From positions 62,001-126,000 of the forward strand of contig NZ_JAIMBY010000009.1 in NCBI RefSeq assembly GCF_026191915.1: a DNA stretch of 64,000 bases. Reading direction: 5' to 3'. The position numbers were made by a program, and so were the translations under genes. Shown piece after piece: positions 6,021 through 33,807 of the stretch. The stretch's first letter is position 1. The number at the start of each line of letters is the position of its first letter. A model generated the notes under the pieces. It made no database searches. It worked only from the letters and a program-made list of their open reading frames with translations, and was not told where the DNA came from. This DNA comes from Acidiphilium sp. PA. Its GTDB lineage: Bacteria > Pseudomonadota > Alphaproteobacteria > Acetobacterales > Acetobacteraceae.

Positions 6021-6150
6021 AGGCAAGGGGAGGGCGACCCAGGCCAGATCAGCGGAAAGTCCGAGGCAGCGCCCTCCCCTTGCCTGAAACTAGCGGGTTC
6101 TAAGGGCTCCGCCCTTAGCGGGGTCGAGGGGCAGAGCCCCTCGCCTTCTT
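6021..6150. repeat. Dispersed palindromic repeat, copy B (left arm truncated)
   Basis: It starts inside the left arm at AGGCAAGGGGAGGGCGACCC, keeps the whole core and the full right arm (CTAGCGGGTTCTAAGGGCTCC ... GGGGCAGAGCCCCTCGCC). The outer ~60 bases of the left arm are missing. It fills the space between the cupin operon start and the DoxX gene. Confidence 0.8.
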
Positions 6151-7390: not shown

Positions 7391-8266
7391 CTATTGTTGC
7401 CCACGCAGCAGCGCCAGAATGCTGTCCAACTGACCCAGGTTCTCATAAGCAAGGTTGACCGAGCCACTTTTACCGTTGAATTTGATCCGCACCCGCAACC
7501 CGAGGAGTTCGACCAGCTCACGCTCCAACATGCGCGTGACCGAATTCACATCTGCCCCCAGCGGTGCGGGCGGCGCCGGTTTCGGTGTCATCGCCGCCGC
7601 GACCATCGCCTCGGCCTGGCGCACCGTCATCCGGTTCGCAATGATCGCGCGCGCTCCGGCCTGCGGGTCCGGATGCTGCATCAGCGCGCGGGCATGTCCC
7701 GCACTAAGATCACCCGATCGCAACGCCGTTTGCACGTCACCCGGCAGGTTCAAAAGGCGCAGCATATTCGTGATATGCGGACGGGATTTGGCAACGGCAG
7801 CCGCCAGATCATCCTGGATCATACCAAATTCATCGAGCAACCGCTGATAGCCCTCGGCCTCCTCGATCGGGTCGAGGTCCTGACGTTGCAAATTCTCGAC
7901 CAACCCGGCCGCCATCGCGTCCGTGTCGGAAAGGTCCCGCACCAGCACCGGCACTTCGTGCAGCCCGGCGCGCTGTGCCGCCCGCCAACGCCGCTCTCCG
8001 GCGATAATCTGATACTGTCCTGGCTGCCCCGGAAACGACCGCACCAGCAAAGGCTGCAAAACACCACGCGATTTGAGAGAGGCGGCAAGTTCCTCCAGCG
8101 CATCCTCATCCATCGCCCGGCGCGGCTGAAACGGGCCGGGGTGCAGACTGGCAATCGCCAGATAACGCGCCCCGTCCGCCGATCCGATGCCGGCATCCAT
8201 CGCCGTGTCTCCCATCAACGCGGCCAGACCCTTACCCAGTCTGCGCGGCTGTTCCTTCAAACCCAT
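7391..8266 (-). CDS. parB: Chromosome partitioning protein ParB
   Basis: 291-residue ParB/Spo0J CTPase that loads at parS and spreads along DNA to drive origin segregation. The N-terminal tail LGKGLAAL is the ParA-stimulating segment. The nuclease-like domain contains FQPRR, GVLQPLLVR and GERRWRAAQ (the CTP-binding GERR box). The central helix-turn-helix is around LAAAVAKSRPHITNMLRLL, followed by LSAGHARAL. The C-terminal dimerisation part ends LDSILALLRG. It is 1 base downstream of parA and last in the operon that starts at 13063. A matching parS lies at 9623-9642. Confidence 0.96.
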   Translation of the reverse strand: MGLKEQPRRLGKGLAALMGDTAMDAGIGSADGARYLAIASLHPGPFQPRRAMDEDALEELAASLKSRGVLQPLLVRSFPGQPGQYQIIAGERRWRAAQRAGLHEVPVLVRDLSDTDAMAAGLVENLQRQDLDPIEEAEGYQRLLDEFGMIQDDLAAAVAKSRPHITNMLRLLNLPGDVQTALRSGDLSAGHARALMQHPDPQAGARAIIANRMTVRQAEAMVAAAMTPKPAPPAPLGADVNSVTRMLERELVELLGLRVRIKFNGKSGSVNLAYENLGQLDSILALLRGQQ

Positions 8267-8267
8267 A

Positions 8268-9065
8268 TCACGCCGCCCCCAAGCTGGCCGGCAATGTCTG
8301 CCGTCGCAAAAACTCCACCGCTAGGCTTACATAGGCCTGCGCCCCCGGCGATCGATAATCATACAACAGCACCGGCTTGCCGTGGCTCGGCGATTCCGTC
8401 ACGCGGATATTGCGCGGAATCGCGGTCTCGAACACATCGGCCTTGAAATATGCCCGCACATCGTCCGCCACGGCCTGCCCCAGATTGTTGCGCCGATCGA
8501 ACATCGTCAGAACCACACCTTCCAGGGCCAGGCGCGGATTGAGCGTGCGGCGTACCAGATTGATCGTTCGCATCAACTGACTGATCCCCTCCAGCGCAAA
8601 GAACTCGCATTGCAACGGAATCAACACCGAAGACGCTGCAACCAGAGCGTTCAATGTAAGCAGGCCCAAGCCGGGTGGGCAATCGATAAACACATACCCA
8701 AACTGCCCATCCAACCCCGGCTCGGCCAACGCCCGTGCGATCAGATGTTCCCGGGAGTCGACCTGCGCAAATTCCAGATCGGCGCCGATCAAATCCTCAG
8801 TCGCGGGAATCATGAGCAAACCCGGCACCTCGGTCGGCAGCACGAGCGAGGCGGCGGGCGCCTCCCCTGTCAACAAAGCGTAACTGCCCAGCCCACGCTC
8901 GTCAGCCCCTATACCAAAGCCGGTGCTGGCATTGCCCTGCGGGTCCATGTCGATCAGCAAGACCCGCTCACCACTCGCCGCCAGCGCGGTCGCCAGATTG
9001 ATCGCGGTCGTGGTCTTGCCGACCCCGCCCTTCTGATTGGCAATGGCGATAATCTTAGCCTGCAC
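8268..9065 (-). CDS. parA: Chromosome partitioning ATPase ParA
   Basis: 265-residue ParA/Soj deviant Walker ATPase that moves ParB-parS complexes along the nucleoid. The deviant P-loop KGGVGKTTT lies at about 11-19, Walker A' is LLIDMDPQGNAS, and Walker B is YVFIDCPPGL. It is chromosomal-type, without the extra N-terminal DNA-binding domain of plasmid type Ia. The start is GTG at 9065, overlapping the last 11 bases of rsmG, which implies translational coupling. Confidence 0.96.
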   Translation of the reverse strand: MQAKIIAIANQKGGVGKTTTAINLATALAASGERVLLIDMDPQGNASTGFGIGADERGLGSYALLTGEAPAASLVLPTEVPGLLMIPATEDLIGADLEFAQVDSREHLIARALAEPGLDGQFGYVFIDCPPGLGLLTLNALVAASSVLIPLQCEFFALEGISQLMRTINLVRRTLNPRLALEGVVLTMFDRRNNLGQAVADDVRAYFKADVFETAIPRNIRVTESPSHGKPVLLYDYRSPGAQAYVSLAVEFLRRQTLPASLGAA

Positions 9066-9681
9066 GGCGCACCTCGGAAATGCGAAGAATCATGGCGTCC
9101 GGGTCCGTCTGGCTGGCAAACCGCTCCACCACCATCCGCCAATCGGCCGCCGCCGCCGCGATCTCGGCCTCGGCATTGCGACCCTTCATGAACAAACAAA
9201 CCCCTCCGGGCGCCAGCAACGGCACGGCATAGACCAATAAATCGGGCAGCGGCGCCAAGGCCCGCGCCATGACCAACGCGACCGGCGCAATCCTCGCCAT
9301 CTCGATCCGCTCCGCCACCACGGTTGCGCTCAATCCCAATGTCGCCACCATCGTTTGCAAAAACGCGGCCTTGCGACGATCCGCCTCGATCATCGAGACA
9401 TGAATATCCGGCCGTTCGATCGCAACCACCATGCCAGGCAACCCGGCACCCGACCCCAGATCGATCGCCCGCGTCACCCCCGCCGGTATCAGCGGCACGA
9501 TCTGCCGCGAATCCAAAATATGCCGCTCCCAGATCGCCTCATCGTTCGCGTCCTTGCGCGCGATCAGATTGATCTTGTCGGTCCATTTTTTGATCGACGC
9601 CGAATAGGTCCGAAGTGGTTCATTTGTTTCACGTGAAACAAAGGTCTCAGAACGGACCTTTTTATCGCCCGCCGTCAGCAT
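9055..9681 (-). CDS. rsmG: 16S rRNA (guanine-527 N7) methyltransferase RsmG
   Basis: 208-residue SAM-dependent methyltransferase (GidB). The SAM motif is AIDLGSGAGLPGMVVAI, followed by MIEADRRKAAFLQ and the VMARALAPLPDLL motif. The ATG at 9681 overlaps the mnmG stop by one base. A TTG at 9684 is the only earlier option. Residues near 14-19 (FVSRET) are encoded by a parS palindrome, so this short stretch is constrained by DNA function as well as protein function. Confidence 0.95.
   Translation of the reverse strand: MLTAGDKKVRSETFVSRETNEPLRTYSASIKKWTDKINLIARKDANDEAIWERHILDSRQIVPLIPAGVTRAIDLGSGAGLPGMVVAIERPDIHVSMIEADRRKAAFLQTMVATLGLSATVVAERIEMARIAPVALVMARALAPLPDLLVYAVPLLAPGGVCLFMKGRNAEAEIAAAAADWRMVVERFASQTDPDAMILRISEVRRAG
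9623..9642. promoter_or_regulatory. parS: parS centromere site inside rsmG
   Basis: The 16-mer TGTTTCACGTGAAACA at 9625-9640 is a perfect match to the universal ParB-binding consensus. It extends to a 20-bp perfect palindrome, TTTGTTTCACGTGAAACAAA (9623-9642). It sits in the 5' part of rsmG, one gene before parA and parB. It is the only perfect parS I find in the window. Confidence 0.95.
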
Positions 9682-31499: not shown

Positions 31500-31590
31500 C
31501 ATGGGGCTTTGCCCGCTGGCCTCCGTTAAAGGCGGCGCCTTTGCAATCCATTCGTTTCAGTCCACGGGAGGGCGAAGCGCCTTGGCCTTC
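31500..31590. repeat. Remnant of the palindromic repeat overlapping the next gene's 3' end
   Basis: It contains GGGGCTTTGCCC, CGTTAAAGGCGGCGCCTTTG and AATCCATT as in the left arm, then joins directly to GGAGGGCGAAGCGCCTTGGCC, so most of the core and right arm are deleted. Bases 31557-31590 encode the last 11 residues ([11 protein letters not shown]) of the PPDK regulator, which therefore ends inside the repeat. Confidence 0.65.
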
Positions 31591-32453
31591 TCTTTATCCC
31601 GCCGATCGTGCCAGTTTTCCATCATCCGCAGCACGGCGGCGGCGGTTTCTTCGATCGAGCGACGGGTGACGTTGACGGTGGGCCAGCCGCGACTTGAGCA
31701 CAGGCGGCGGGCCCAGAGCAGTTCGGCTTCGACGGCGTCTTCATCGATATAGTCTTCGTGATCGCGTTGAAAGGCCGCCCCTGGCGTGGTGCTGGCGCCG
31801 AGCAGGCGAAGGCGGTGGCGGCGGATTTCGATCAGGGGGGCGGCGTCGATGAACAGACCGATCACGGGGCAGCGTGGTTCATCGAGCACATCGGGGACGG
31901 CGATGCTGGGGACCAGCGGGATATTGGCGGCTTTGACGCCGCGATTGGCAAGGTAGAAGGCCGTCGGCGTTTTCGAGGAGCGGGAGACGCCGACCAGAAT
32001 GACATCGGCTTCGGCGAGGCCGCGCATCGCCTGGCCATCATCGTGCGAGAGTACGTAGTGCATGGCGTCGATCCGGCGGAAGTAATCGGCATCGAGCACG
32101 TATTGCCGCCCAGGCGTCGCGCGGACCGGGGTGCCGAGCTCATCGGCCAGAAGTTTGAACACCGGGTCGAGCATATGGAGCAATCGCAGGCCGAGCCGTT
32201 CGCACGCCTGGGCGAGCTCGCCGCGCAGGGCTTCATCGACCAGGCTGGACAGAACCGGGCCGCGTTCGGCTTCAATCCCTTCGAGCACGCGGTGCAATTG
32301 CAGGCGCGAGCGGATCAGGCTCCAGCGATGCAGGTGGATATCGGCCCCCTCGAACTGCGCGGTCACCGCACGGGCGACGGCGTTGAGCGTGTCGCCGGTG
32401 GCATCCGAAACGAGGTGGAGATTGAGCCGTTTACCGTCCATTAACTTCTTCAT
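31557..32453 (-). CDS. Pyruvate phosphate dikinase / PEP synthase regulatory protein (DUF299)
   Basis: 298-residue bifunctional kinase/pyrophosphorylase that inactivates PPDK or PEP synthase by ADP-dependent phosphorylation and reactivates it by phosphorolysis. The start [20 protein letters not shown] and the P-loop-like [19 protein letters not shown] are diagnostic; YVLSHDDGQ and [17 protein letters not shown] follow. It is the RP001 homologue that flanks the origin in Caulobacter and Rickettsia. The start is ATG 32453 or ATG 32441. The C-terminus is encoded by a repeat remnant. Confidence 0.92.
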
Positions 32454-32721
32454 AGCGTGGATAACTCGGCGCCGGATAGGGCCGCCGGTGGAGAAGTGGG
32501 ATAACTCCGGAATCCCGATTCGCTGTGGATTGTTGTGAGCGGGTGTTTATGCGAATGTGGAAAAATCCAGGGTTTGACGTAGAATCAGCCGATTAAAAGC
32601 GGACTCTGGCTGTGGATAAGTTTGTGTATTGTTGTGGGGTGAGCGGGGTTCCACATGATTCACAGGGTTAACTTCCACAACCATTTCTTAATCTAAAACA
32701 TTTAAAAGGTAGTCCGGGTCC
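32454..32721. other. oriC: Probable chromosomal replication origin (oriC)
   Basis: 268-bp gene-free gap between the DUF299 regulator and hemE, the origin position in Caulobacter and Rickettsia. A perfect DnaA box TGTGGATAA (TTATCCACA on the minus strand) lies at 32611-32619. TGTGGAAAA at 32556-32564 fits TTWTNCACA. CGTGGATAA (32456-32464) and TGATTCACA (32656-32664) each differ by one base, and TGTGGATTG (32524-32532) by two. An AT-rich block (about 32683-32708, TTTCTTAATC..AAACATTTAAAA) at the hemE side is the likely unwinding element. No CtrA TTAA-N7-TTAA site is present. Confidence 0.82.
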
Positions 32722-33807
32722 ATGACGGGGAAAATGATCGATCGGCCGGTTTTGCAGGTGCTCGCAGGCGAAGCAATCTGGCCGCCACCGGTCTGGCTGA
32801 TGCGTCAGGCGGGGCGGTACCTGCCGGAGTATCGCAAGCTGCGGGCAACCGCGGGCAATTTCATTGCCCTGAGCACGACGCCGGCCATGGCAACCGAAGT
32901 AACGTTGCAACCGGTCCGCCGCTTCGGCATGGACGCCGCGATTCTGTTCAGCGACATTCTGATCCTGCCCTGGGCGCTTGGGCAGAAGCTGCGTTATGCC
33001 GAGGGTGAAGGTCCGCTGATGGAGCGGATCGAGGACGTCGCCGGGCTGGATGCGCTCGATCTGAACCGGTTGAAGCCGGGCACGGAATCGGTGATGGAGA
33101 CTGTTTCGCGGGTGCGGGCCGATCTGCCGCCGCGCTGCACCTTGATCGGGTTTGCCGGCAGCCCGTTCACGGTTGCGTGCTACATGCTGGATGGCAAAGG
33201 CGGCAATTTCGCGCGGACGATGCAGTTGATCTACAGCGATCCGGGGCTGGTGGCCGCGGTGATCGAGCTGGTGACAACCGCGACGGTGGATTATCTGTCC
33301 TGGCAGATCGAGGCCGGGGCGGATTGCGTGATGCTGTTCGATTCCTGGGCCGGTTTGCTGCCGCCCGATCTGTTTCGTGCGCATGTGATCCATCCGACGG
33401 TCCGGATTGTCGATGCGTTGCAGGCGCGGCACCCGGATGTGCCGATCATCGGATTTCCGCGTCTCGCGGGGTTGATGGCGCTGCCCTACATCGCCGAAAC
33501 CGGCATTGCCGGGTTCGGCATGGATACCGGCACGGATGCGCCCACCCTTGCCCGATTGCTGCCGCGCAAAGTGGCGTTGCAGGGAAATCTGGACCCGTTG
33601 CTGTTGCGGGCGGGCGGGGTTTCGCTCGATCATGCGGTGGAACGAATCGCCCGCGAAATGGCCGGCATGCCCCATATTTTCAACCTTGGCCACGGTATCG
33701 TGCCGGAAACGCCGCCCGAGCATGTCGCCACGTTGATCGAACGGCTGCGGTCGCTCGAACCGGCACCGCTTGAGGAATCCCCGCGAGCCGCTACTTCAGG
33801 TTCATGA
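32722..33807 (+). CDS. hemE: Uroporphyrinogen decarboxylase
   Basis: 361-residue haem-pathway enzyme converting uroporphyrinogen III to coproporphyrinogen III. The signature PPVWLMRQAGRYLPEYR carries the substrate-binding Arg residues. FSDILILPWALG contains the catalytic Asp, and GFAGSPFTVACYM is the second signature. The C-terminal FNLGHGIVPETPPEHV is typical. It starts immediately after the AT-rich edge of the origin and overlaps hemH as ATGA. Confidence 0.97.
   Translation: MTGKMIDRPVLQVLAGEAIWPPPVWLMRQAGRYLPEYRKLRATAGNFIALSTTPAMATEVTLQPVRRFGMDAAILFSDILILPWALGQKLRYAEGEGPLMERIEDVAGLDALDLNRLKPGTESVMETVSRVRADLPPRCTLIGFAGSPFTVACYMLDGKGGNFARTMQLIYSDPGLVAAVIELVTTATVDYLSWQIEAGADCVMLFDSWAGLLPPDLFRAHVIHPTVRIVDALQARHPDVPIIGFPRLAGLMALPYIAETGIAGFGMDTGTDAPTLARLLPRKVALQGNLDPLLLRAGGVSLDHAVERIAREMAGMPHIFNLGHGIVPETPPEHVATLIERLRSLEPAPLEESPRAATSGS

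Follow-up and report, generated by a model that had tools for sequence, protein, structure and literature searches.

The chromosomal origin of Caulobacter crescentus, Cori, lies between hemE and CC0001, a COG1806 gene, and contains an AT-rich block, DnaA boxes and an IHF site, and the origin of Rickettsia prowazekii is bounded by the corresponding pair, hemE and RP001/COG1806 (PMC1914354). The Wolbachia and Ehrlichia origins described in the same source share the hemE side, together with DnaA and IHF sites, and have a different second boundary gene, COG1253. GC skew is reported there to be insufficient for predicting the origin in several alphaproteobacteria. Among the papers found for the origins of Acidiphilium, the Acetobacteraceae and Gluconobacter oxydans and for alphaproteobacterial hemE origins, none appears, judged by titles and the beginnings of abstracts, to describe the Acidiphilium origin.

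Here we analyzed a 64,000-nucleotide window of Acidiphilium sp. PA, spanning 62001-126000 of contig C86 (151,309 bp) in a draft genome of 4.54 Mb and 86 contigs; the hemE gene in the window shares 96% identity with its counterpart in Acidiphilium rubrum ATCC 35905. An earlier note on this DNA had read the 268-bp gap between ppsR and hemE as the probable chromosomal origin, a reading supported by the boundary pair, by the conservation of DnaA box and IHF site positions within the family, and by a skew minimum at hemE in two relatives. We put the probability that the gap is oriC of the Acidiphilium main chromosome, of the hemE/COG1806 type, at roughly 0.87.

The ppsR-hemE gap and its sequence elements

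The proposed oriC is the entire gap from 32454 to 32721 (268 bp, no strand assigned), and its boundaries proved to be those given in the earlier note. On the left, ppsR (31557-32453, minus strand; PF03618, 1e-80; COG1806, DUF299, NCBIfam PRK05339) has its 5' end at 32453, and on the right, hemE (32722-33807, plus strand; PF01208, 3.8e-109; TIGR01464) starts at 32722. The gap is thus intergenic between hemE and a COG1806 (DUF299) gene, and it is richer in AT than its surroundings, with a GC content of 0.49 versus 0.63 for the contig. Single-strand folding of the gap was unremarkable (z -1.57).

The gene order of Caulobacter and Rickettsia, which the note had also recognized, is retained for the hemE/ppsR pair but not beyond it, as aroE-coaE-dnaQ reads toward the gap and a gene for an S9 peptidase intervenes between dnaQ and ppsR. 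In Caulobacter, aroE-coaE-dnaQ points away and parAB is on the hemE side. Similarly, genes point predominantly away from the gap on its right side (21 of 26 ORFs) but only 13 of 24 do so on its left, where ORFs were taken as genes, some of them overlapping and not all assigned to a family.

A perfect DnaA box, TTATCCACA (= TGTGGATAA), is present on the minus strand at 32611-32619 and is the sole exact match in the window. Because 17 of 100 whole-window shuffles contain at least one exact box, this lone match proves little, and it is the clustering of boxes that exceeds chance. Three boxes with at most one mismatch occur in the gap, at 32456-32464 (TTATCCACG), 32556-32564 (TTTTCCACA) and 32611, compared to a shuffle mean of 0.08, and none of 2000 gap shuffles reached three. 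When two mismatches were allowed, the gap contained six boxes, also reached by none of 2000 gap shuffles, the additional ones being weak boxes at 32487, at 32524-32532 on the minus strand (CAATCCACA) and at 32656-32664 on the plus strand (TGATTCACA). The near matches that had been noted on both strands are therefore found on both only at two mismatches, with 32656 as the single plus-strand box, and all three boxes with at most one mismatch are on the minus strand. A degenerate second box may also be present on the minus strand at 32623-32631, 12 bp beyond the perfect box; in an alignment made by eye, its TGTGGAT appears clearer in some relatives.

Between these boxes, AATCAGCCGATTA at 32583-32595 on the plus strand is an exact match, by sequence, to the IHF consensus WATCARNNNNTTR, and a gene for IhfB was found in the Acidiphilium genome. 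The AT-rich block previously noted before hemE was also confirmed, with a GC content of 0.36-0.38 over 32650-32724; its core at 32680-32709, adjoining hemE, is a probable unwinding element. No exact CtrA site (TTAA-N7-TTAA) occurs in the gap. A CtrA control layer was rejected for this gap on these grounds, and control by CtrA as at Caulobacter Cori seems unlikely because a CtrA site is lacking here.

Conservation of the gap across the Acetobacteraceae

A survey of 56 hemE loci, in which the window was counted and some genomes were represented twice, showed that ppsR adjoins hemE in 50. Motifs were counted in the 44 distinct gaps among these 50, including the truncated locus L069, and the gap alignment comprised the 43 left after L069 and identical gaps were dropped; loci without ppsR (six of the 56, plus eight of 20 further loci) lie outside the 44. 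Gap ends were defined by tblastn matches extended to residue 1 of the window proteins, so that starts may be several codons off. Most Acidiphilium gaps are 268 or 270 bp long, and 41 of the 44 distinct gaps measure 246-331 bp, the others being 117 (the truncated locus), 416 and 419 bp.

The 44 distinct gaps contained 102 DnaA boxes with at most one mismatch, where shuffles averaged 2.6 and never exceeded 7; four gaps had none. The boxes recur at fixed distances from ppsR. On the minus strand, box starts coincide with that of the perfect box (gap position 158) in 20 gaps, or in 23 if positions 157-159 are considered, with that of the box at 32456 (position 3) in 11, and with that of the box at 32556 (position 103) in nine. 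On the plus strand, the weak inverted box at 32656 (position 203) has counterparts with at most one mismatch at positions 201-204 in 16 gaps, 14 of them starting at 202 or 203. An exact IHF-type site was found in 25 of the 44 gaps (shuffle mean 1.0, maximum 4), and in 18 it lies at position 130, as in the window. Exact CtrA sites, in turn, were present in only one of the 44.

Among 20 further loci from the family and the class, 12 retained a divergent ppsR. These 12 gaps contained 0 to 6 boxes each, with none in three gaps; none of the 12 had an exact IHF site and two had an exact CtrA site. By these motif matches, the DnaA-IHF-DnaA layout is confined to part of the family and is not class-wide.

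Strand composition and segregation sites

In two complete, lower-GC members of the family, the region upstream of hemE is the GC-skew minimum of the 200-400 kb analyzed, no more than ~0.5 kb from where hemE starts. For G019, a single contig of 2.70 Mb, the lowest 500-bp bin of 200 kb ended at 611,500, close to the start of the hemE match at 611,160; in G035 (1.92 Mb, one contig), the minimum of 400 kb was at 1,025,500, and the hemE match, on the minus strand, begins at 1,025,607. The same region was the densest box cluster of the sequence analyzed in both genomes, and neither ppsR beside hemE nor an IHF-type site upstream of hemE was found in either. The GC-skew minimum of G043 missed the gap by 1-2 kb. 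In G045, all 16 copies of the octamer GGGCAGGG flip orientation within 2,207,806-2,221,749, a 14-kb stretch that includes the gap, and the GC split was 44 kb off.

The octamer GGGCAGGG is among the architecture-imparting octamers given for Acetobacter pasteurianus (PMC3751514). Its splits were 23-32 kb from hemE in G019, 95-103 kb in G035 and 61-75 kb in G043, and because the GC minimum in these genomes is at hemE or 1-2 kb from the gap, the octamer is a coarse marker at this scale.

A GC-skew minimum at the gap, which the earlier note had named as confirmation, was not found on the window's own contig, where GC skew splits near 13 kb (13.0 kb) and reaches its lowest point at the right contig end. 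The note had named a minimum elsewhere as grounds for refutation, and formally the contig shows one, yet we judge this not decisive because 12.6-13.4 kb is devoid of boxes with one mismatch or none, because the GGGCAGGG split, to which 13 of 15 sites conform, is at 54.5-56.9 kb, so that the two splits flank the gap, and because GC skew is insufficient in several alphaproteobacteria (PMC1914354).

The alternative that survives best, although we consider it improbable, takes the 13.0-kb split at face value: the origin would lie there, between mnmE and a dsbH-like gene, and the gap would be a mere DnaA/IHF-regulated divergent promoter for hemE and ppsR. Genes do diverge at 13 kb, and in two other Acidiphilium genomes, G005 and G008, skew likewise switches locally at the mnmE/dsbH junction. 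However, besides the missing DnaA boxes, the intergenic part at 13 kb carries a dispersed palindromic repeat, the orientation of GGGCAGGG in G005 remains unchanged for ~20 kb past the mnmE/dsbH junction, and the GC minimum is at hemE in G019 and G035. A pure promoter role for the gap also appears unlikely because the DnaA and IHF sites have fixed spacing and because skew minima are found at hemE in these two relatives.

The repeat itself is GC-rich, palindromic and ~200 bp long. The 151 kb of the contig contain eight pairs of GGGGAGGG and its complement, with a spacing of exactly 45 bp in every pair and with copies at window positions 6027, 13203, 22308, 44977 and 55540 and others in C86 outside the window (L007, L008). 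Its inner core was found in both orientations, and one copy is at the ~13-kb skew switch. From its sequence it looks like a non-coding mobile repeat.

Returning to the ppsR-hemE gap as the origin, the offset between gap and skew varied among other genomes. In G005 (gap at 3.0707 Mb), the GC minimum at 3.046 Mb and the best split at 3.013 Mb are 25-58 kb off, GGGCAGGG flips at 3.030-3.058 Mb, 13-40 kb from the gap, and hemE shows lagging-like skew; the best fit accounted for 59 of 73 polar sites and the hemE gap as origin for 53 of 73. A distribution of GGGCAGGG on the plus strand only over 0.74 Mb of G005 was dropped, as minus-strand sites were found in the same stretches. In G031, the offset was ~31 kb by GC and 33-52 kb by GGGCAGGG, and G057 showed no skew signal. 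Skew from sampled 12-kb stretches was too noisy in G005 and G008.

Segregation sites were also associated with the hemE region. As the earlier note had observed, a perfect parS is located ~23 kb from the gap (22.8 kb), at 9625-9640 within the 5' part of rsmG, and adjoins parB and parA (7391-9065, minus strand). Of 13 genomes searched, ten have a parS, and in each of these at least one copy shares a contig with hemE and lies no more than ~100 kb from it. The window's genome (G000) has two more perfect parS sites on other contigs, at C1:482784 and C34:116788.

The window has parS and hemE 23 kb apart; in G005 this distance is 62 kb and in G008 ~92 kb. In addition, hemE points away from parAB in the window but toward it in G005 and G008. 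This variable distance and orientation, together with the direction of aroE-coaE-dnaQ, fit repeated inversions near the origin, and we infer that rearrangement there lies behind the skew conflict. The lagging-like skew of G005 hemE is not explained by inversions.

Other candidate origins and DnaA-box clusters

An origin at 0.26-0.30 Mb in G008, ~0.5 Mb from the gap, gives the best account of the polar sites, fitting 59 of 69 where the gap fits 43 of 69. This raises the alternative that the active origin has moved within Acidiphilium and that the gap is a relic. A local GC minimum near 0.272 Mb agrees with such a move. Nevertheless, no pair of boxes within 300 bp is present in G008 from 250 to 315 kb, though two copies of TGATCCACA lie 350 bp apart, the three boxes of the gap are preserved in G008, and the three boxes nearest to the 0.26-0.30 Mb site are by ordinary genes. 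We regard relocation as slightly less credible than the 13-kb origin. We presume these genes to be gcrA-like, methyltransferase-like and coxB-like. The switch in skew and polar octamers near 0.27 Mb, in contig C18 of G008, lacks a box cluster and could reflect a large inversion or a moved origin.

An origin beside dnaA, where oriC of Acetobacter pasteurianus 386B has been placed by prediction (PMC3751514), has very little in its favor in Acidiphilium. In the window's genome, dnaA is on another contig (C1:124047) and has no TKWTCCACA match within 15 kb; in G005, an origin at dnaA fits 42 of 73 polar sites versus 53 of 73 for the hemE gap; and in G019 and G035, dnaA is about half a chromosome away from the skew minimum at hemE. 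The distance between dnaA and hemE is ~557 kb in G008 and ~680 kb in G005, the latter across record ends. In G019 and G035, dnaA is at 1965419 and 493, respectively, and hemE at 611160 and 1024555. Placement of the origin based on dnaA, as predicted for A. pasteurianus 386B (PMC3751514), may therefore be wrong in the family.

The gap is the top-scoring box cluster in 151, 252 and 205 kb around hemE of three Acidiphilium genomes (G000, G005 and G008). A genome-wide scan for exact matches, made with the one pattern TKWTCCACA, found 79 sites and, counted by eye, pairs within 300 bp at five places, one of which is the ppsR-hemE gap. Two others are plasmid-type RepA/ParA loci (C18, PF04796, and C16, PF10134) and a third is inside a phage-integrase gene (C48, PF00589). 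At C16:37047-37069 (L011 7048-7070), two perfect opposed DnaA boxes with starts 14 bp apart lie in the 3' part of the plasmid replication initiator gene (PF10134).

The fifth place, in contig C78, is a 146-bp intergenic space (L013 8225-8370) between the 3' ends of genes for a CitMHS transporter and an acyltransferase. It contains three boxes with at most one mismatch on one strand, at 8252, 8329 and 8351 (span 8252-8359, ~110 bp). The cluster is thus not coding, and it recurs in relatives: after the same transporter gene, G004 and G007 each have three boxes at similar places and G008 has two. G001 and G005 lack boxes after that gene, and the gene itself was not matched in G002, G003 and G029. 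By these sequence matches, the ppsR-hemE gap is not the sole conserved DnaA-box cluster, and because the C78 cluster is intergenic and conserved we lowered our confidence in the gap as oriC from 0.88 to 0.87.

The tight spacing of its three boxes and their counterparts in three relatives would favor C78 as the origin or as a second initiation site, but this is as improbable as an origin at dnaA given the relatives that lack the boxes or the gene, the absence of an IHF-type site from the cluster, a local skew that changes from plus to minus, the wrong direction, with no minus-to-plus switch, and a G008 counterpart at 2.71 Mb in a region where sampled stretches at both 2.6 and 2.8 Mb have negative skew. 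The C78 cluster is better regarded as a candidate DnaA-titrating or regulatory site. It may be a site like datA.

Taken together with the skew data, a more speculative and rather doubtful model is that the hemE origin of Acidiphilium is no longer at the switch in strand composition, either because it has been repeatedly flipped or displaced relative to the arms or because initiation is moving off an ancestral origin that is itself intact; DnaA would meanwhile be titrated or relayed by C78.

Proposed mechanism and comparison with known origins

If the ppsR-hemE gap is the origin, its anatomy suggests how initiation might proceed. DnaA would first bind the strong box at 32611, and IHF would bend the DNA at 32583-32595, joining the upstream boxes at 32556, 32524 and 32456 into one complex. 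This complex would then spread over the weak inverted box at 32656 and melt the AT-rich block at 32680-32709, where helicase would be loaded and from which two forks would depart.

These results place a probable origin in a genus of acidophiles and reveal a DnaA-IHF-DnaA layout with fixed spacing and almost no CtrA sites that is common to much of the family. The layout should help in building replicating vectors, and origin annotations that rely on dnaA in acetic acid bacteria and related organisms could be checked against it.

In comparison to the described systems, the Acidiphilium gap is shorter than Cori (268 versus 404 bp), has none of the CtrA sites of which Cori has five, and contains a perfect DnaA box, in contrast to the moderate G-boxes and weak W-boxes of Cori (PMC4468827). 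In the same source, CtrA sites are said not to be seen in other origins, which agrees with their near-absence from the Acetobacteraceae gaps; they are reported for Wolbachia (PMC1914354). The R. prowazekii origin, with the same boundary genes, is far more AT-rich (82.55% AT over 384 bp; PMC1914354). In its boundary genes, DnaA boxes, IHF site and AT-rich block, the gap nevertheless matches the published Caulobacter Cori and its kin (PMC1914354), an origin type that is already known. The Acidiphilium origin thus very probably occupies the same location as that of its distant relative Caulobacter, as an expected case of a known origin class.
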